Positions 5,365 through 17,536 of a stretch of 64,000 nt of DNA are shown here, piece after piece. Origin of the DNA: Nitrospirota bacterium. GTDB taxonomy: Bacteria; Nitrospirota; Leptospirillia; Leptospirillales; Leptospirillaceae. The notes below the pieces were generated by a model that did not search any database, had not been told where the DNA came from, and saw nothing but the letters and a program-made list of their open reading frames with translations. The position numbers were made by a program, and so were the translations under genes. The stretch is taken from NCBI GenBank assembly GCA_021785195.1, contig JAJYGC010000009.1:124001-188000 (forward strand). The letters are read 5' to 3'. The first letter of the stretch is position 1. Every line of letters begins with the position of its first letter.

Positions 5365-8300
5365 ATGGTGAATTTTTTTCTCAAGAGACCCATTTTCGCG
5401 TCGTCGACCGCAATCATTATGGTGCTGGTTGGATTGATCGCTTTCAAGCTTCTTCCCGTCTCCCAGTTTCCGGAGATAACTCCTCCACAGGTCACTGTTT
5501 CAGCCAATTATCCCGGAGCCAGTGCTCAGGTGGTCGCGGATACCGTCACCACTCCTCTTGAGCAACAGATCAGCGGAGTGCCCGGGATGGCCTATATGTC
5601 TTCCACCAGTTCGAACGATGGTAGTTCCACGATTACGATCACCTTTAATGTAGGCTACCCCATCGATATTGCGGCAGTCGATGTTCAGAACCGCATTTCC
5701 CAGGCTATCCCGCAATTGCCAGCGATCGTGAACCAGGGCGGGATCATTGTCCAGAAGAAAAATCCGAATTTTGTCCTGATCGTCAACCTGGTCTCCCCCG
5801 ACGGCTCAATCGATCCTGTGACAATGAGCAACTACGCCTACCTGCAGATAGTGGATCCCCTGAAGCGCCTGACCGGGGTAAGCGATGTCGTCATTTTCGG
5901 AGAACGACGGTATTCGATGAGGGTCTGGCTTGATCCGGCCAAGCTGGCGAAGCTTGGGATCACGGCCATTGATGTCCAAAATGCGATCGCTGAACAAAAT
6001 GTCCAGGTGGCGGCTGGAAAGATTGGACAGTCTCCGGCCCCGGCAGGCACGGCCTTCGAGTACCAGGTGAATGCGATGGGGAGGCTCAGCACCCCTCGGG
6101 AATTCGGAAACATTATTCTTCGGGCCGGTCTCCAGAGTAATGCAATCGTTCACCTCAAGGATGTCGCACGAATCGAACTCGGTGCGCTTCAATACACCTC
6201 TTCGGCTCATCTGGACAAGAATCCAACCGTTATTCTCGGAATTTTCCAGACGCCAGGATCCAATGCCCTTGAGCTCGATCGCCAGGTGAAAGCCAAAATG
6301 GCGGAAATCTCCAAGCGCTTTCCAAAGGGAATGACCTACTCGATCAAGTACGACACGACCCAGTTTGTCTCCGCGTCCATGCATGAAGTGATTTTCACGT
6401 TGAGTGAAGCCCTTCTTCTTGTTTTCGCGGTCGTTTTCCTTTTCCTGCAGAGCTGGCGGACGATGGTCATCGCCGGAATTGCGATTCCGGTCTCCTTGAT
6501 CGGAACGCTTGCGGTCATGGAGGCTGTCGGGTTTTCACTGAACACCGTCAGTCTTCTGGGAATGGTTCTCGCGATCGGCCTTGTTGTCGATGATGCGATC
6601 GTTGTCGTCGAAAATGTTGAACGCCAGCTCGAACATGGAGTGGCCCCAATGGAAGCGGTCAAGGTTGCCATGGGAGAGGTGACGGGGCCGATTATCGCCA
6701 CATCGGCGGTTCTTGGGGCCGTTTTTGTTCCCGTGGCCTTCCTGCCGGGGATTACCGGGGAGCTTTATCGACAGTTCGCCTTGACCATTGCAATTTCCGT
6801 TGGTCTTTCGGCATTTAACTCCCTTACTTTGACTCCCGCCCTTTCCGGCTGGCTCCTGCGCTATCAGGGACCTCCCGATTTCATTGTGTTCCGAAAATTC
6901 AACGAAATTTTCGAAAGGGTGCGGAGCGGGTATGCACAACTGGTCAAAAAAGCCATCCAGGCCCGCTGGGTAGCCTTGGGACTCTTTCTGGGCGGAATTC
7001 TGATGACCTATGGCCTGTTCGTCCGTGTCCCCGAAACATTCCTGCCGGTTGAAGATCAGGGGTACTTTTTTGTCATTATCCAGCTTCCCGATGGGGCCGC
7101 TTTGCAGCGGACCGACCAGGTGGCGAAAACGGTAAGGGATATTCTCTTGTCGACGCCCGGGGTCCAGGATGTGGTTTCGATCAGCGGCTTGAACTTCCTG
7201 ACTTTTGCCAATCAGTCAAACAGTGCTGCAGAATTTGCGATCCTGAAGCCCTGGGATGTCCGAGGCCGTGGATTGACGGCTTCAATGATCGTCAATGCCG
7301 TCCGTCCCAGACTCTTGGCCATTCCTCAGGCGGTAGCACTTAGTTTTGACCCTCCGTCCATTCCGGGTCTCGGTTCCACCGGAGGGTTCGAGTTCGAACT
7401 AGAGGATCTGACCGGACGTGGGAGCCGGGACCTTGACCAAGCCACTCAGGCATTGATTGCGGAAGCCCGAAAACAGCCTGAAATTGATGGTCGCCAGGTT
7501 TTTACGACGTTCAGTACTTCGACGCCCCAGTTCAATTATGCGCTCGACCGGACGAAAGCGAAGCTTCTGGGGCTGTCTCTTCCGGATGTGTTCAACACGC
7601 TTCAAATCTACCTGGGGTCTCTTTATGTGAACGATTTCAATCTTTACGGGAGAACCTTCCGGGTGACCATCCAGGCCAAGAAGGAGGCTCGTGATAGCCC
7701 TGGAGATCTTTCCAGACTTTATGTCCGGAATACCTCCGGCAAAATGGTCCCTCTTGACACGCTTGGTCGCCTCCGACCGACGGTGGGACCGGAAACCGTT
7801 GCACATTATAATATCTACGGGTCAGCCTTGATCAACGGTGGGCCTGCTCCAGGATACAGCTCGGGCGACGCGATCAAGGCGATGGAGAGGGCTGCGAAAA
7901 AGTCCCTGACGCCGGATTTCGGATTTGAATGGACCGGAATCACCTATCAAGAACTCAAGGTGGGTTCGGTCGAGAAAATCGTGTTCGTGATCTCACTGGT
8001 GTTTGTTTTTCTCTTCCTGGCGGCACTGTATGAAAGCTGGGCGATGCCGTTCATGGTCATTCTTGCCGTTCCACTCGCAATCTTTGGAGCGATGCTGGCG
8101 ATCTGGCTTCGGGGCAAGCAGGTGGATGTCTATTCCGAGATCGGTTTTGTCATGTTAATCGGTTTGTCCGCCAAAAATGCGATCCTGATCGTCGAGTTTG
8201 CCAAGCGTCTTCGGCAAAAAGGGTTGGGGGTTGTCGAAGCCGCCATGGAGGCCGGGCGGCTTCGCCTTCGACCGATCCTGATGACGGCATTTGCGTTCAT

Positions 8301-8493
8301 TCTTGGTGTTATTCCCCTGATGGTCTCTTCCGGGGCGGGGGCAGCCAGCCGACAGTCGATCGGTACGACGGTTTTCGGCGGGATGCTGGCGGCGACCCTT
8401 TTGAGCCTTGGTTTTGTCCCGGTGTTCTATGCCGTGATCGAACGCTTCCGGTCAGGCCGGGAGGGGGACGGAGAGAGTTCGTTGTCCCCCTGA
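5365..8493 (+). CDS. RND efflux transporter, HAE1 (AcrB/MexB) family
   Basis: 1042 aa; MVNFFLKRPIFASSTAIIMVLVGLIAFKLLPVSQFPEITPPQVTVSANYPGASAQ; GLVVDDAIVVVENVER; C-terminal FVPVFY. Confidence 0.96.
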   Translation: MVNFFLKRPIFASSTAIIMVLVGLIAFKLLPVSQFPEITPPQVTVSANYPGASAQVVADTVTTPLEQQISGVPGMAYMSSTSSNDGSSTITITFNVGYPIDIAAVDVQNRISQAIPQLPAIVNQGGIIVQKKNPNFVLIVNLVSPDGSIDPVTMSNYAYLQIVDPLKRLTGVSDVVIFGERRYSMRVWLDPAKLAKLGITAIDVQNAIAEQNVQVAAGKIGQSPAPAGTAFEYQVNAMGRLSTPREFGNIILRAGLQSNAIVHLKDVARIELGALQYTSSAHLDKNPTVILGIFQTPGSNALELDRQVKAKMAEISKRFPKGMTYSIKYDTTQFVSASMHEVIFTLSEALLLVFAVVFLFLQSWRTMVIAGIAIPVSLIGTLAVMEAVGFSLNTVSLLGMVLAIGLVVDDAIVVVENVERQLEHGVAPMEAVKVAMGEVTGPIIATSAVLGAVFVPVAFLPGITGELYRQFALTIAISVGLSAFNSLTLTPALSGWLLRYQGPPDFIVFRKFNEIFERVRSGYAQLVKKAIQARWVALGLFLGGILMTYGLFVRVPETFLPVEDQGYFFVIIQLPDGAALQRTDQVAKTVRDILLSTPGVQDVVSISGLNFLTFANQSNSAAEFAILKPWDVRGRGLTASMIVNAVRPRLLAIPQAVALSFDPPSIPGLGSTGGFEFELEDLTGRGSRDLDQATQALIAEARKQPEIDGRQVFTTFSTSTPQFNYALDRTKAKLLGLSLPDVFNTLQIYLGSLYVNDFNLYGRTFRVTIQAKKEARDSPGDLSRLYVRNTSGKMVPLDTLGRLRPTVGPETVAHYNIYGSALINGGPAPGYSSGDAIKAMERAAKKSLTPDFGFEWTGITYQELKVGSVEKIVFVISLVFVFLFLAALYESWAMPFMVILAVPLAIFGAMLAIWLRGKQVDVYSEIGFVMLIGLSAKNAILIVEFAKRLRQKGLGVVEAAMEAGRLRLRPILMTAFAFILGVIPLMVSSGAGAASRQSIGTTVFGGMLAATLLSLGFVPVFYAVIERFRSGREGDGESSLSP

Positions 8494-8522
8494 TTTCCTG
8501 CTTTCTGCCAATGACCCAATGA

Positions 8523-9728
8523 ATGATGATGAAAGTGCCGATTGAGGGTTATTTAATCAGGAGCCTGCAACCGATGAAAATAAGAAAGGTTTCACCCGTT
8601 CAAATTGGATTGGCCGTATTTGGGGTGATTGCCCTGATTTTTGCGTTCGGCGGACCGAACGGATTGTTACGCTCCAGAGGGGTTTCTGCAACCCCTCCCC
8701 AAAGTGGTTTCCGAATGCCCGTTCCCGTGGTTCAGGTCATCCGGAAGACCATCCCCGTGTATAAGGAGTTTGTCGGGACGACCGAGGCGATTCGCAATGT
8801 GACTTTGCAGGCGATGGTCACGGGATATCTGATAAAACAATTTGTTCCGGACGGGACCGATGTACACAAGGGAGCGCTGATCTACCGGATTGATCCCCGG
8901 AATTTTCAGGCGTCCCTGGATCAGGCCAATGCCCAGAAAGAGCGCGATGCTGCCGTTCTGGAATACTCGAAGGTCAACCATGAGCGCAATGCGCTCATGG
9001 TTGTTCATGGAGACGTATCCAAGGATGCCTATCAATTGGCGACCAGCTCAATGCATCAGGCCGCTTCGAGCGTCCTGTTCGATAAGGCTCAAGTGGAGCT
9101 GGCTCGAATCAACCTCGGATATACCATGATCCGTGCGCCCTTTTCCGGTCGTCTCAGCCGAAGCCTTGTCTATACCGGGACATTGATCGGTACTGGAACG
9201 CAAATCAATACCCTTGTCCAACTCGATCCCATTTACGCGACTTTCAATCCCAGCGAGGCGGATCTGGCTGAAATCCAGAAATATCGGGCGAAAGGGGTCA
9301 TGGAGGCGAACGTCAATGTTTCTGGCAATCCGGCAACGGAATATAAGGGAGCCCTTACTTTCCTGGATAATTCCGTCGACCGTTCGACCGGTACGATTAC
9401 GGCGAGGGTGACCATTTCAAATCCGGACAAGGTCCTGCTTCCCGGGCAATTCGTACATGTGATGCTCCATCTTGGATATCGGAAGAACGCCCTCCTGGTT
9501 CCGCAGATCGCAATAGGCTCCAATCAAATCGGAAAATATCTTTATGTTGTGGGAAAAGGGAATGTTGTGGAAATGAGGTTCGTGGTTCTGGGAACCAAGT
9601 TTGGAAATCTGATTGAAGTGAAGCATGGCGTACGGGAAGGGGAATCCGTGATTGTGGGGAATCAGCAGAAAATTGGTCCGGGGATGCCAGTGAGGCCTTT
9701 GTTTGACAAGGGTCGTTCTGGACACTGA
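8523..9728 (+). CDS. RND efflux periplasmic adaptor (MFP) subunit
   Basis: GTDVHKGALIYRIDPRNFQASLDQANAQ; RAPFSGRLSRSLVYTGTLI. Confidence 0.93.
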   Translation: MMMKVPIEGYLIRSLQPMKIRKVSPVQIGLAVFGVIALIFAFGGPNGLLRSRGVSATPPQSGFRMPVPVVQVIRKTIPVYKEFVGTTEAIRNVTLQAMVTGYLIKQFVPDGTDVHKGALIYRIDPRNFQASLDQANAQKERDAAVLEYSKVNHERNALMVVHGDVSKDAYQLATSSMHQAASSVLFDKAQVELARINLGYTMIRAPFSGRLSRSLVYTGTLIGTGTQINTLVQLDPIYATFNPSEADLAEIQKYRAKGVMEANVNVSGNPATEYKGALTFLDNSVDRSTGTITARVTISNPDKVLLPGQFVHVMLHLGYRKNALLVPQIAIGSNQIGKYLYVVGKGNVVEMRFVVLGTKFGNLIEVKHGVREGESVIVGNQQKIGPGMPVRPLFDKGRSGH

Positions 9729-9811
9729 TTCCTCTGAATGGCGAAGAATGAGGAGGTCGTTTCCAATTTTGATGCCCCTTGATTGTCGGGTGGGGCTGGA
9801 ACATTTTTCCC

Positions 9812-9841
9812 TTGACTTGGGCAGGTGTCGCGACATATTGT
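9812..9841 (+). promoter_or_regulatory. Putative sigma70-type promoter for the metK leader
   Basis: TTGACT (9812-9817), 18 nt, TATTGT (9836-9841); would place the start site near 9848 at the edge of the aptamer. Confidence 0.5.
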
Positions 9842-9847
9842 AAATTA

Positions 9848-9905
9848 ACAGGGTGGAGTGATTTGAGGTATATTGCAACCACCTAAAAAAAGTGCTAAAA
9901 GTCCA
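9848..9905 (+). promoter_or_regulatory. SAM-II (SAM_alpha / metA motif)-like riboswitch aptamer
   Basis: GGTGGAGTGATTTGAGGTATATTGCAACCACCTAAAAAAAGTGCTAAAAGTCC: P1 GGTGG(9852-9856):CCACC(9879-9883), conserved TGATTTG, TTGCA, TAAA..AAGTGCTAAA elements recalled from the SAM-II consensus, GG/CC positions compatible with the pseudoknot; located upstream of metK. Confidence 0.82.
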
Positions 9906-9929
9906 GGCAATTTACGTATTTTGGAAAGT

Positions 9930-9961
9930 AAACCCTGTGCTTGCGCACCGGGTTTTTTTTT
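9930..9961 (+). terminator. Intrinsic terminator in the metK leader (candidate riboswitch expression platform)
   Basis: AAACCC-T-GTGC TTGC GCAC-C-GGGTTT stem (one mismatch) followed by nine T (9953-9961). Confidence 0.85.
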
Positions 9962-10000
9962 GTCTTTTTGTCTAGAATCAGCAACTCAGGAGGACCCAGC

Positions 10001-11158
10001 ATGGGCCGAGCCCCTTTCCTTTTTACCTCTGAATCTGTGACCGAAGGCCATCCGGATAAGATCTGCGATCAAATTTCTGATGGAATCCTTGATAAAATCC
10101 TGTCCCAGGATCCCATGGCCCGTGTTGCCTGCGAAACCCTGACGACAACAGGGATTGTGATGATCGCGGGGGAAATCACTGCGAATCACAATACGGCCTA
10201 TGACGATGTGGCTCGGGAAATTATCAAGGAAATCGGTTATACAGACGCCGCTTTTGGGTTTGATTACAAGACCTGTTCTGTCTTGACGGCAGTTCATTCC
10301 CAGTCTCCGGACATTTCTATGGGGGTTGATACGGGAGGAGCCGGTGATCAGGGACTGATGTTTGGAATGGCGACTGATGAGACGGAAGAGTTGATGCCGA
10401 TGCCGATCCTTTTGGCCCATCGCTTGACTCGGCAATTGAGTAATGTGCGGAAAGCCGGGATACTTCCGTATCTCCGTCCGGACGGAAAATCCCAGGTCAC
10501 CCTCAGGTATGCGGACAATGCGCCTGTTTCGGTGGATACGGTTGTCCTTTCCACCCAGCATGCTCCCGAGATCTCCCAGGAACAGATTCACAACGATATC
10601 ATCGAGAGAGTGATTCGTCCGGTACTTCCTGACCATCTGGTCGACAGCAGCAAGATCACTTACCACATTAACCCGACCGGGCGGTTCGTCATGGGTGGAC
10701 CCATGGGTGATGCGGGTCTGACAGGGCGAAAGATTATCGTGGATTCTTACGGTGGATGGGGACGCCATGGTGGGGGGGCGTTTTCGGGCAAGGATCCCAC
10801 CAAGGTTGATCGTTCTGCCTGTTATATGGCCCGGTACATTGCCAAAAATATCGTGGGAGCGGGCCTTGCGCGACGTTGTGAGGTTCAGCTTGCCTATGCG
10901 ATTGGGGTCAGGGACCCGGTATCGGTTCTGGTGGACTCCCAGGGGACATCCGTTTTGTCGGATGAGTTGATCTCGGAATGTGTCAGGGAGCTTTTTCCGA
11001 TGACCCCGTTGGGAATCATCAACCATTTGAAGCTTCGTAGGCCTATTTATCGGAAGACGGCGGCCTATGGCCATTTTGGACGAAACGAAGAGGACTTCAC
11101 CTGGGAAAAGCTGGACATGGTGGAACCCTTGAAACGGGAAGCTGAGCGCAGGGCCTGA
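10001..11158 (+). CDS. metK: S-adenosylmethionine synthetase
   Basis: [43 protein letters not shown] ribosome site before ATG 10001. Confidence 0.97.
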
Positions 11159-11193: not shown

Positions 11194-12490
<1,297 letters not shown>

Positions 12491-12494
12491 TCCC

Positions 12495-12698
12495 ATGAAA
12501 ATCCGGGTTAATGGAGTGGTGGAAGAGTGTTCTGAAGGCCAAACGCTTTCTGATTATATGAAAGTCAAGGGGTTTGATCCGGCATTGGTTTCGCTGGAAC
12601 ATAACGGACGCATTCTCGATAAGGATGACTGGTCCGGAATTACCCTTCGGGATGATGATGAAGTCGAGGTCCTTTTCTTTATGGGAGGAGGCGTGTGA
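12495..12698 (+). CDS. ThiS-type ubiquitin-like sulfur carrier protein
   Basis: 67 aa, MKIRVNG start, ends EVEVLFFMGGGV; 4 nt after ahcY stop, overlaps the next gene. Confidence 0.85.
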   Translation: MKIRVNGVVEECSEGQTLSDYMKVKGFDPALVSLEHNGRILDKDDWSGITLRDDDEVEVLFFMGGGV

Positions 12699-13633
12699 CT
12701 GCCCCTCCCGGGAAGGGAACCACGACGCTTGACCAGCTGATTGGTCGAACACCGATGGTTCCGCTCCAGCTCTTGTCCGATTCCCTCGACCGGACCATCT
12801 GGGTCAAGCTGGAGTCCAGAAACCTGGGGGGGTCCGTAAAGGATCGTCCTGCCAGATATATGATTGAACAGGCTGAACGGAATGGGGTGCTGGCTCCTGG
12901 TGGACGAATTGTGGAAGCCACGAGCGGCAATACCGGAATTGCCTTGGCCCAGATCGGGGTCCTGAAATCCTACCCGGTGGTGATTGTCATGCCGGAAGGG
13001 GTGAGCCAGGAAAGAGTCTATCATCTCAAGGCACTGGGAGCCGAAGTCGAACTGACCTCCGCGCGAGAAGGAATGGCCGGAGCGATTCGCCGGGCGGAAG
13101 AAATTCTCTCCGAACGTCCGGGTTCCTTTATGCCTCGCCAATTTGAGAATCCGGCCAATCCGGATTCTCATTACCGGACGACGGGGCCCGAGATTGTTGA
13201 ACAGTTGGGAAGAGCGCCTGATGGTTTTGTGGCAGGTGTGGGGACGGGTGGTACGGTAACGGGAGTGGGACGTTATCTGAAGTCCCGAAAGCCCGAGACC
13301 CAGGTTTGGGCGCTGGAACCGGCCTCCAGTCCAGTTCTCTCGGGGGGGGCTGCCGGGCCACATCGAATCCAGGGGATCGGCGCCGGCTTTGTCCCTAAAA
13401 TCTTTGATCGGGCGGTTTGTGATAAAATTCAGACGATCGAAGACCGTCAGGCGATCGACATGGCCCGTCACCTTTCAAGAAAAGAGGGAATCATGGCGGG
13501 ACTTTCCTCGGGGGCAAACGTTGTTGGTGCGATCTCGCTCGCAAGGACTCTCCCGGCTGGAAGTCATGTCGTCACAATCGTTTGTGACAGTTTTGAACGA
13601 TACTTCTCCATGGAAAAATATCTGGCGCTCTAG
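12695..13633 (+). CDS. PLP-dependent cysteine synthase, CysM/CysK-like
   Basis: LESRNLGGSVKDRPARYMIEQAE; VEATSGNTGIALAQIG; GTGGTVTGVGRYLK. Confidence 0.93.
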   Translation: MTAPPGKGTTTLDQLIGRTPMVPLQLLSDSLDRTIWVKLESRNLGGSVKDRPARYMIEQAERNGVLAPGGRIVEATSGNTGIALAQIGVLKSYPVVIVMPEGVSQERVYHLKALGAEVELTSAREGMAGAIRRAEEILSERPGSFMPRQFENPANPDSHYRTTGPEIVEQLGRAPDGFVAGVGTGGTVTGVGRYLKSRKPETQVWALEPASSPVLSGGAAGPHRIQGIGAGFVPKIFDRAVCDKIQTIEDRQAIDMARHLSRKEGIMAGLSSGANVVGAISLARTLPAGSHVVTIVCDSFERYFSMEKYLAL

Positions 13634-13666
13634 CGTCACGCTGGAGTCCAGCTGAAGGGGTTGGAA

Positions 13667-14479
13667 ATGGAATTGACGGAAGAGCAGGTTCTCCGTTATT
13701 CCCGTCACATTCTTTTGCCGGAGGTGGGGGGGACGGGGCAGTCCAGGCTTCTTTCATCCAGCGTTCTCGTGATCGGGGCCGGGGGATTGGGAAGTCCGGT
13801 GGCGCTTTATCTTGCCGCGGCAGGGGTAGGCCATATCGGCCTGGTCGACATGGATCAGGTGGATCTCTCGAACCTTCAGAGACAGGTAATCCATCGAACG
13901 GCTGATGTGGGTCGGATGAAAGTGTCATCGGCCAGGGACAAGATTGCCCTCCTGAACTCGGATGTCCGCGTCACCGAATACCCGTTCCCGCTGATGGCGG
14001 ACAATGCTGCCGAAATTGCCGGACAATATGATGTTCTTGTTGATGGAACGGACAACTTTGCCGCCAAGTTTTTGATCAATGATCTGGCCATCCTGACGGA
14101 CAGACCTCTTGTTCATGCCGGGATTCTTCGGTTTGTCGGGCAGGTTCTGACCATATTGCCGAGAAAGGGAGCGTGCTATCGCTGTCTTTTTCGGGAGCCA
14201 CCCCCTGTGGGTGCTGTTCCGACATGTTCCGAGGCCGGTGTATTGGGTGTTATCGCTGGAGTCATCGGAACGATACAAGCGACTGAAGTCTTGAAAATAT
14301 TGTTGAAACGCGGGGATTTGTTGGTTGACCGCCTCTTGACCTATGACGCCCTCCCAGTGTCATTCCGAAATGTCAAGGTGCGTCGGAATCCCCAATGTCC
14401 CGTCTGCGGAGATCATCCAACCATTACGGAGCTTCACGATTATGAGCAACCCGTCTGCGTCACACCGGCCATCCCCTGA
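13667..14479 (+). CDS. ThiF/MoeB-family E1-like adenylyltransferase (copy 1)
   Basis: YSRHILLPEVGGTGQSRLLSSSVLVIGAGGLGSPVALYLAAAGVG; DLSNLQRQ; CPVCGDHP zinc site. Confidence 0.93.
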   Translation: MELTEEQVLRYSRHILLPEVGGTGQSRLLSSSVLVIGAGGLGSPVALYLAAAGVGHIGLVDMDQVDLSNLQRQVIHRTADVGRMKVSSARDKIALLNSDVRVTEYPFPLMADNAAEIAGQYDVLVDGTDNFAAKFLINDLAILTDRPLVHAGILRFVGQVLTILPRKGACYRCLFREPPPVGAVPTCSEAGVLGVIAGVIGTIQATEVLKILLKRGDLLVDRLLTYDALPVSFRNVKVRRNPQCPVCGDHPTITELHDYEQPVCVTPAIP

Positions 14480-15725
14480 AGGAACCTCCCCCTCCGCTTT
14501 TCTGAAGGGGCTCAAATGCCGGGAGTGCGGCCGTCTCTACGATCTGGCCGCCATTCATGTCTGCGATTTTTGTTTTGGTCCGCTTGAGGTGGATTATGAT
14601 TACGAGGCGATTCGCCGTGTCCTGACCCGGGATGCAATCCAGAAGGGTCCGAACTCACTCTGGAGGTATAAGCACCTTTTGCCTGTCGTGAATGAGCCGA
14701 CGATTGGACTGCATGCCGGGATGACCCCTCTCCTCAAGGCAGACCGACTTGGGAAGGCGCTGGGCTTGAAGCGGCTGTACATCAAGAACGATACGGTGAA
14801 CCATCCCACCCTATCGTTCAAGGATCGGGTTGTGGCGGTGGCGATCAACCGGGCCCGCGAGTTGGGTTTCAAGACAGTTGCCTGTGCATCAACCGGAAAT
14901 CTTGCGAACTCGGTTTCCGCACATGCCGCGAGTGCAGGAATGAACTGCTTTGTGTTCATCCCCCATGACCTGGAAGCCGGTAAAATTCTGGGAAACCTGA
15001 TATACAAACCCACCGTGGTAGCCGTCAAGGGGAACTACGATGATGTGAACCGGCTTTGCAGCGAGATCGGGGCCGAATATCCATGGGCTTTCGTGAATAT
15101 CAATATTCGCCCTTACTATGCGGAAGGCTCCAAATCGATGGCCTTCGAAACAGCCGAGCAGCTGGGCTGGAGGATTCCTGACCAGGTTGTGGTTCCGATT
15201 GCTTCGGGATCTCTGTTGACCAAGATCTGGAAGGGATTTCAGGAGTTTTCCAGCCTGGGGATCGTGGATGCACATCCGGGTCTGAAGGTGAATGGAGCCC
15301 AGGCGAGTGGATGTTCTCCTGTCTATCAGGCGTTTATGGCAGGGCGCACCCAGTTTGTTCCGGTCAAGCCAAAAACAATTGCCAAGTCGTTGGCCATCGG
15401 GAATCCGGCGGATGGATATTATTCGCTGGATGTCGTCGGAAAGTCCCATGGTCAGGTGGAAGCTGCGACAGACCCTGAAATTGTCGAGGGAATGGTTCTG
15501 CTGGCAGAAACCGAAGGGGTTTTTGCTGAGACCGCCGGTGGGGTGACGGTCGCATGCCTTCGCAAGCTGGCAAAGAAAGGGGCGATCCGACCCGATGACC
15601 TGACTGTGGCCTACATTACCGGCAATGGGCTCAAAACGATGGAAGCCCTTACGGGATATCTGCCTGAGCCTGTCGGGATTGATCCGACACTGGCTTCGTT
15701 TCGGAAAATTGTAAATCCGTCTTGA
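14442..15725 (+). CDS. Threonine-synthase-like PLP enzyme
   Basis: N-terminal CRECGRLY..CDFCFGPLE zinc ribbon; NDTVNHPTLSFKDRVVAVAINRARELG; ACASTGNLANSVSAHAA. Confidence 0.88.
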   Translation: MSNPSASHRPSPEGTSPSAFLKGLKCRECGRLYDLAAIHVCDFCFGPLEVDYDYEAIRRVLTRDAIQKGPNSLWRYKHLLPVVNEPTIGLHAGMTPLLKADRLGKALGLKRLYIKNDTVNHPTLSFKDRVVAVAINRARELGFKTVACASTGNLANSVSAHAASAGMNCFVFIPHDLEAGKILGNLIYKPTVVAVKGNYDDVNRLCSEIGAEYPWAFVNINIRPYYAEGSKSMAFETAEQLGWRIPDQVVVPIASGSLLTKIWKGFQEFSSLGIVDAHPGLKVNGAQASGCSPVYQAFMAGRTQFVPVKPKTIAKSLAIGNPADGYYSLDVVGKSHGQVEAATDPEIVEGMVLLAETEGVFAETAGGVTVACLRKLAKKGAIRPDDLTVAYITGNGLKTMEALTGYLPEPVGIDPTLASFRKIVNPS

Positions 15726-15740
15726 GCAAAGGAGCTTTTG

Positions 15741-16022
15741 ATGTCTGTATTGATCCGGATTCCAACGCCGCTGAGACCATTGACCAATGGGCAGAACGAA
15801 GTCCAGGAAACCGGAGGGAACGTCAGGGAGATCCTGGACAAGTTGACGGCCCATTATCCCGGGATCGGTGAAAGGATTCTTGATGAGAAAGGGGATGTTC
15901 GCCGGTTTATCAATATCTATGTGAACGAAGAGGACATCCGTTTCCGGGAAGGGGTCCAGACGGCCTTGAAGGAGGGGGATGAGCTTTCGATCATTCCAGC
16001 CATTGCCGGAGGAAGTCGATGA
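15741..16022 (+). CDS. MoaD-type ubiquitin-like sulfur carrier with C-terminal extension (GG-SR)
   Basis: RFINIYVNEEDIRFREGVQTALKEGDELSIIPAIAGGSR. Confidence 0.9.
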   Translation: MSVLIRIPTPLRPLTNGQNEVQETGGNVREILDKLTAHYPGIGERILDEKGDVRRFINIYVNEEDIRFREGVQTALKEGDELSIIPAIAGGSR

Positions 16023-16261
16023 CACGCCTCCGCTTCCATATGACCTTTCCGGAAGAGCGTGTCAAGGAACCGATTCTCTACGAGATTTCGCAGAAGTTCC
16101 GTGTGGTTCCCAATATCCGTAGGGCAGATGTGTCGGACAGTTCCGGTTGGGTGGAGCTTGAACTCGAAGGTGAGTTGCCCGAGATTGAGCGTACGATCGA
16201 CTATCTCCGGAAAAGGGGCATTCATGTGGATCCCCTGGAAAAAACCATTCTGGAAGGGTAG
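16019..16261 (+). CDS. NIL-domain protein
   Basis: 80 aa; RLRFHMTFPEERVKEPILYEISQKFRVVPNIRRADVSDSSGWVELELEG. Confidence 0.8.
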   Translation: MTRLRFHMTFPEERVKEPILYEISQKFRVVPNIRRADVSDSSGWVELELEGELPEIERTIDYLRKRGIHVDPLEKTILEG

Positions 16262-16276
16262 GCCGGAAGGGGCATT

Positions 16277-17080
16277 ATGGAATTTCGTGAAGATCAAGTG
16301 GAGCGATACAGCCGCCACATCATCCTGAAGGAAGTCGGAGGGGCAGGGCAGAAGAAACTGCTGAATGCCCGGGTCCTTGTGATCGGCGCCGGCGGATTGG
16401 GGAGTCCTGTGGCCATGTATCTTGCCGCGGCGGGGATCGGAACAATCGGTATCGTCGACATGGATGATGTGGACCTTTCGAATCTCCAACGACAAATCCT
16501 TCATACGACAAAAACGGTCGGGAAGCCCAAGGTTCTCTCCGCTTACGAAACTCTCACCGCGATGAACCCGGATGTCCGGGTCGTTCCGATCACGGAGAAG
16601 CTGACCGCAGACAATGTCCTGGATTTATTCCGAGACTACGATGTCATTGTGGACGGGTCCGACAATTTCGGGACCAGATATGTTGTGAACGATGCGGCCT
16701 TTTTCCTCCGTAAACCATTGGTTTCCGGTTCAATTCTCAGATTCGAGGGACAGGTCATCGTGCTGGAAGGGTACAGGGAAACCCCATGCTACCGTTGCCT
16801 ATACCCTGAAGCTCCGCCTCCGGGACTGGTTCCATCCTGTTCGGAAGCCGGTGTTCTGGGGGTTCTGGCGGGAACGATCGGAACCCTGCAGGCTTCTGAA
16901 GTGGTCAAGCTGATTCTGGGAATCGGGGATCCCCTTCGGGATCGTCTCCTGATCTATGATGCACTGGCAATGACCTTCCGGAAAGTGCGGGTTCCGAAAG
17001 ACCCGAATTGCCCGTTGTGCGGAGAGAATCCCCTGATCCATTCCGTTTCCGGTTCCACCGACTGGGCATGTTCGATCTAG
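16277..17080 (+). CDS. ThiF/MoeB-family E1-like adenylyltransferase (copy 2)
   Basis: YSRHIILKEVGGAGQKKLLNARVLVIGAGGLGSPVAMYLAAAGIG; CPLCGENP. Confidence 0.93.
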   Translation: MEFREDQVERYSRHIILKEVGGAGQKKLLNARVLVIGAGGLGSPVAMYLAAAGIGTIGIVDMDDVDLSNLQRQILHTTKTVGKPKVLSAYETLTAMNPDVRVVPITEKLTADNVLDLFRDYDVIVDGSDNFGTRYVVNDAAFFLRKPLVSGSILRFEGQVIVLEGYRETPCYRCLYPEAPPPGLVPSCSEAGVLGVLAGTIGTLQASEVVKLILGIGDPLRDRLLIYDALAMTFRKVRVPKDPNCPLCGENPLIHSVSGSTDWACSI

Positions 17081-17104
17081 CCCCCTTCCAGCTGGAGCCC
17101 TAGG

Positions 17105-17536
17105 TTGAGTCCAAGCGGATGGAACGGACTGTTTCCGAAAGCCTTGTACGAAGAGATTGTTGCGCACGCTCGAAGTGTTTTCCCAGAGGAGTGTTGCGGG
17201 CTCGTCGCAGGAGATGGCAAGGGAATTCCCCTCCGGACCATTCCGATGGAAAATGCCCTCCACTCCCCAGTCCGGTATCAGATGGAGCCCAAAGAGCAGT
17301 TTCAGGTCCTGAAACGGCTTCGCTCCGAAGGACTGGAGATGTGGGGGATCTACCATTCCCATCCGGTGACGGAACCGGTTCCCTCCGATACGGATATTCG
17401 TCTCGCCTATTATCCTGAACTCGTCTACCTTCTGACTTCACTCAAGGATGCCGTTCCCCCCCTTCGCAGCTTTCTCATCCGGGATGGACACGTGAAGGAG
17501 ATTCCCCTCACATTGACAGACGGGATTGCCAAATGA
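17105..17536 (+). CDS. JAMM/MPN+ metalloprotease, Mec/HcyD-like
   Basis: EECCGLVAG and HSHPVTEPVPSDTD, an intact HxH-x7-S-x2-D JAMM motif. Confidence 0.88.
   Translation: MSPSGWNGLFPKALYEEIVAHARSVFPEECCGLVAGDGKGIPLRTIPMENALHSPVRYQMEPKEQFQVLKRLRSEGLEMWGIYHSHPVTEPVPSDTDIRLAYYPELVYLLTSLKDAVPPLRSFLIRDGHVKEIPLTLTDGIAK

Follow-up and report, generated by a model that had tools for sequence, protein, structure and literature searches.

Locus Organization

The window, by which we mean the whole 64-kb stretch of DNA analyzed here, encodes S-adenosylmethionine synthetase (metK), recognized by three Pfam domains in agreement with the earlier note, and a SAM-II-type aptamer lies approximately 90 nt upstream of this gene (ATG at 10001). 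The closest metK relatives in named genomes belong to the Nitrospirae MAGs UBA4572 and nzgw273. These relatives assign the host to the Nitrospirota, bearing out the suspicion of a phylum other than Proteobacteria; at genus level we take it to be Leptospirillum-type. The features flanking the riboswitch are as follows:

9812..9839, + strand: sigma-70-like promoter (TTGACT 9812-9817, 16-nt spacer, CATATT 9834-9839; 9/12 matches)
9988..9993, + strand: Shine-Dalgarno sequence of metK (AGGAGG, read from the sequence), downstream of the terminator and not overlapping the aptamer
10001..11158, + strand: metK, S-adenosylmethionine synthetase, the putatively controlled gene (PF00438, PF02772, PF02773)
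11234..17536, + strand: same-strand gene run after metK (Pfam, ORFs)

Transcription is predicted to start at about 9846. Behind metK, the Pfam-based gene order is ahcY, CysK/CysM-type PALP, ThiF, threonine-synthase-like PALP, ThiS, ThiF, and JAB, and metK is possibly co-transcribed with this run (11234-17536). The genes at 12695-17536 (+), behind metK-ahcY, comprise two ThiF, ThiS, JAB, and two PLP enzymes, which suggests that cysteine or methionine is made in a sulfur-carrier-dependent manner, possibly controlled by the switch of metK. Directly upstream of the riboswitch (5365-9728, +), the ORF translations resemble those of an RND-type efflux pump with its membrane-fusion partner. No SAM-I riboswitch was found elsewhere in the host genome (64% complete).

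SAM-II Aptamer

Two Rfam matches in the 64-kb window exceed the curated cut-offs: a 6S RNA (RF00013; 45409-45586, +; 59.5 bits vs. a cut-off of 46.4) and RF01726, the "long loop" subfamily of SAM-II. The RF01726 match (cmscan) lies at 9847-9908 (+), scores 47.1 bits against a gathering score of 44, and covers the full model (1-60/60), with E = 7e-6 over the whole window and 4e-8 over 9700-10050. The proposal of a SAM-II-type aptamer is thus upheld, through a different model from the one suggested for checking it: RF00521 (SAM_alpha / SAM-II) aligns over its full length at the same site with 25.1 bits, below its cut-off of 36 bits, so that membership of RF00521 is rejected and the sister family RF01726 is the right model. 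Taken alone, this score would have refuted the proposal under the criterion set in the earlier note, an RF00521 hit above threshold, but the shortfall reflects only the choice of model. The RNA at 9847-9908 is a true member of the RF01726 family by its sequence, and we infer that it binds SAM. The aptamer and its helices comprise:

9847..9908, + strand: SAM-II riboswitch aptamer (RF01726; covariance model, 47.1 bits, full length)
9852..9856, + strand: P1 5' strand GGTGG, pairing with 9879-9883 (aligned leaders)
9879..9883, + strand: P1 3' strand CCACC (aligned leaders)
9867..9869, + strand: P2b pseudoknot 5' strand GGU, pairing with GUC 9901-9903 (candidate helix joining loop 1 to the 3' tail)
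9901..9903, + strand: P2b pseudoknot 3' strand GUC, common to the antiterminator (overlap of at least 2 nt in every copy)

The two P1 strands had been quoted correctly in the earlier note, as had ACAGGGT (9848-9854) and ACCCTGT (9932-9938), which are taken up below.

Distribution and Conservation of the Leader

RF01726 occurs in 18 of the 21 genomes of the host's family, and the three genomes that lack it are 71-80% complete. Among 396 genomes drawn from the phylum it occurs in 25, with members in four other families. We read 28 copies, of which 23 precede metK, three precede a JAB-ThiS-CysM operon, and two are orphans; 26 distinct leaders were aligned. A TTGAC motif is present at a similar distance 5' of the aptamer in most of the other copies. 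The R1 model, built on the entire leader, recovers the same set with E-values between 1e-16 and 1e-28, and otherwise yields only chance-like matches; against 80 metK loci that include other phyla, its only strong match is a Nitrospirota locus (L025). We rejected the weak R1 matches at L094, L064, and L082 (19 to 28 bits), two of which fall on the minus strand, as apparent chance terminators, and likewise those in genomes G159, G187, G191, and G195 (26-28 bits), which are without the SAM-II core pattern.

In family f7, the riboswitch precedes a JAB-ThiS-CysM cluster rather than metK (L020, L021, and L022, around 1501-2350), apparently a sulfur-carrier-type operon for cysteine or homocysteine synthesis. 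The two orphan copies of aptamer plus terminator (L023, 1501-1563; L024, 755-817) are followed by a short ORF that matches no Pfam family, with a gspC-like ORF further on and, at L024, a ThiS-like ORF on the opposite strand. Their genomes (G018 and G012) also carry a copy before metK, and the orphans are possibly small RNAs or displaced copies.

The conserved core (GAUUU, UUGCAACCAC, and GCUAA) forms invariant columns in the leader alignment, in agreement with the Rfam alignment. P1 retains 5/5 pairs in all 26 aligned leaders, and its first pair changes from G-C to C-G in f7 (one compensatory change). With the register chosen per sequence, loop 1 and the tail can form a 3-pair P2b helix in 28/28 copies. 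Sequence changes between lineages affect both of its strands: many copies have GAC/GUC, f43 has GGC/GCC, and others have different combinations. The helix is weak in the window (GGU/GUC, with one G-C pair and the two wobbles G.U and U.G) and in its nearest relatives.

Terminator and Antiterminator

The region between aptamer and metK is occupied by a compact expression platform:

9900..9907, + strand: antiterminator 5' strand AGU(C)CAGG, pairing with CCUG(U)GCU 9934-9941 (folding, leader comparison)
9911..9932, + strand: antiterminator inner stem-loop, UUUAC 9911-9915 with GUAAA 9928-9932 (folding, shuffled linkers)
9931..9961, + strand: intrinsic terminator, AACCC.GUGC 9931-9940, loop, GCAC.GGGUU 9945-9954, and U tract to 9961 (folding)

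The strong intrinsic terminator described in the earlier note is confirmed: it folds at -12.3 kcal/mol, is present in 28/28 copies, and keeps 9/9 pairs in 26/26 aligned leaders. It escaped a simple terminator scan, a failure probably due to the U9936.C9949 mismatch in the stem. Textbooks usually present SAM-II as translational control, with the ribosome-binding site hidden in P2 as in metX (PMC10907184). Here, approximately 80 nt, including the terminator, separate the aptamer from the Shine-Dalgarno sequence (9988-9993) downstream of it; occlusion at this distance is rejected, and we give translational control almost no credence.

When the platform is folded up to the end of the terminator 5' arm, a helix between 9900-9907 and 9934-9941 is the minimum free energy (MFE) fold in 27/27 cases, plus L139. 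This antiterminator has 6-7 pairs in 28/28 copies and a single architecture throughout, which loses one pair in f24 and f28: A-G-[U/C], a mismatch or bulge, and C-[A/G]-G-G, opposite CC[U/C]G-U-GC[U]. The A-U pair within CAGG/CCUG becomes G-C in f7 (CGGG/CCCG, a double change) and G.U in the orphan copies. The inner stem is always present and differs by lineage (UUUAC/GUAAA, CGAGA/UCUCG, UCGA/UCGA, GUUGC/GCGAU, and others), and in some copies the fold is extended by pairing of the core GUGC and A tract with the terminator GCAC and U tract. The outer helix is nearly invariant within the home family, so that its covariation rests on few lineages. Linker shuffling gave p = 0.02 to 0.47 per sequence; only the combined values reach significance (p = 5e-4 over nine representatives; p = 1e-3 for shuffling of the 5' strand), and these overstate the strength of the signal, as the representatives were hand-picked and are related. 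Column-shuffle controls on the MAFFT alignment (17/500 for double changes) are not decisive, partly because the P2 strand is shifted by one column outside the family in this alignment.

The terminator arm carries a further trace of double use. Across the metK leaders of the home family, a U in the terminator stem (U9936 in the window) stands opposite C or U. This flaw could easily be repaired and is plausibly kept because the antiterminator requires the U as a partner for A9905. In f7, C replaces this U in the arm, G stands in the antiterminator, and the terminator has a C-G pair. The retained mismatch and the f7 exchange together support the dual role of this arm.

In 28/28 copies, the antiterminator and P2b have at least 2 nt in common; in the copies folded with the P2 strand blocked, the antiterminator is either lost or destabilized by some 2 kcal/mol or more. 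Aptamer helix, antiterminator, and terminator offer mutually exclusive pairings, as judged from sequence and folding. The overlap weighs against a terminator that is not switched by SAM and serves as a constant attenuator or small-RNA source, since a constant attenuator would need no such overlap in every copy. A precedent has been suggested in Sinorhizobium meliloti metA, where the terminator downstream of SAM-II is not predicted to respond to SAM (PMC9373788), and the orphan copies L023 and L024 have no Pfam-recognized gene directly behind them; nevertheless, we regard a constant terminator as decidedly improbable.

The earlier note had placed the antiterminator elsewhere, between ACAGGGT, which overlaps the P1 5' strand, and ACCCTGT, which would make P1 and the antiterminator mutually exclusive. 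The complementarity itself holds: the seven pairs are exact in the window, about 1% of shuffles are as good, and in incremental folding this helix is the MFE structure at 94-95 nt of transcript (-17.9). However, once GCU of the terminator arm has emerged, the favored fold combines P1 with the pseudoknot-strand antiterminator (-20.4, MFE at 98 nt), before the terminator becomes the MFE at 110 nt. For the leader of the window, the MFE structure predicted without ligand (-18.7) likewise has P1 alongside the pseudoknot-strand antiterminator. All seven pairs of the P1-overlapping helix are found in only 3/26 leaders, confined to the host genus and a single sister genus (the leader of the window, and L007 and L006 in G001 and G004); 65% of cells are paired, with no double change and no covariation. 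This helix would also require P1 to be open without SAM, against the probing of metX SAM-II reviewed in PMC10907184. It is rejected as a general mechanism because it is not conserved, and we judge it highly improbable as the switch.

An intermediate reading is that the conserved antiterminator is supplemented by a lineage-specific extra 5' strand, with both helices acting in the host's own genus and in the sister genus. The two helices are similar in stability in the window, and the P1-overlapping strand does occur in two genera. Yet the two compete for a single terminator arm and are mutually exclusive, and the P1-overlapping helix is without covariation; we consider joint action unlikely.

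Proposed Switching Mechanism

We propose, with good confidence, that the SAM-II (RF01726) riboswitch turns metK off by premature transcription termination, with the pseudoknot strand as the switching element. Without SAM, P1 would be formed and the pseudoknot 3' strand AGUCCAGG (9900-9907) would pair with the terminator 5' arm CCUGUGCU (9934-9941); this antiterminator, enclosing the short inner stem, would keep the terminator from forming, and metK would be transcribed. With SAM, the pseudoknot helix P2 would occupy 9901-9903 and the outer helix of the antiterminator would be lost; the terminator (9931-9961) could then form, ending transcription before metK in a product feedback. P1 would be formed in both states. 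The chain from SAM through a locked P2 to termination would follow from the antiterminator 5' strand containing the P2b 3' strand. We infer SAM-dependent termination before metK in this sense: the earlier logic, in which the SAM-bound state is OFF, is supported, but it would operate via the pseudoknot strand and not via P1.

A more general proposal, which we offer tentatively and hold at somewhat less than even confidence, is that in Nitrospirota the conserved SAM-II 3' strand is itself the antiterminator, and that the imperfect pairing of the terminator arm is imposed by the need of CAGG for a U-A pair. If true, the platform would be a compact one, with the same nucleotides serving as pseudoknot strand and as switch strand.

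Comparison With Known Systems

Within the searched literature, no SAM-II riboswitch was found for Nitrospirota or Leptospirillum, which is weak evidence as subscription papers lay mostly outside the search; a platform for RF01726 in which pseudoknot strand and switch strand coincide is likewise not described in the searchable literature. The leader would thus add SAM-II control of metK to this phylum. Its expression platform is short, the cross-genome comparison points to a single switching strand, and the 28-member set with its conserved platform makes transcription control by SAM-II, so far predicted more often than measured, directly testable.

Terminator control is not in itself unusual for SAM-II (Barrick and Breaker, 2007), contrary to the earlier expectation, and SAM-II riboswitches with terminators are already known (PMC2258182). 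For S. meliloti metZ, a Rho-independent terminator is predicted to form on SAM binding (PMC9373788); that system resembles the present one in combining SAM-II with a terminator, but it precedes metZ rather than metK and belongs to the Alphaproteobacteria. RF00521 has the same overall core as the window's aptamer, which differs in scoring below the cut-off of that family. RF01726 was defined as SAM-II with long loops (Weinberg et al., 2010) and reported for Bacteroidetes and marine samples (PMC2864571); no further papers naming it were found in the searched literature. In Bacteroides ihuae, our control genome, RF01726 also scores above the cut-off, a likeness at the level of the aptamer family. 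The window's aptamer shares with RF01726 its P1, the loop GAUUUG, UUGCAACC, the A-rich stretch, and GCUAAA, and differs in its location in Nitrospirota and in its conserved antiterminator-terminator platform. Termination control by SAM-II being known, what is new here is mainly the host in which the riboswitch is located and the RNA strand that would do the switching.
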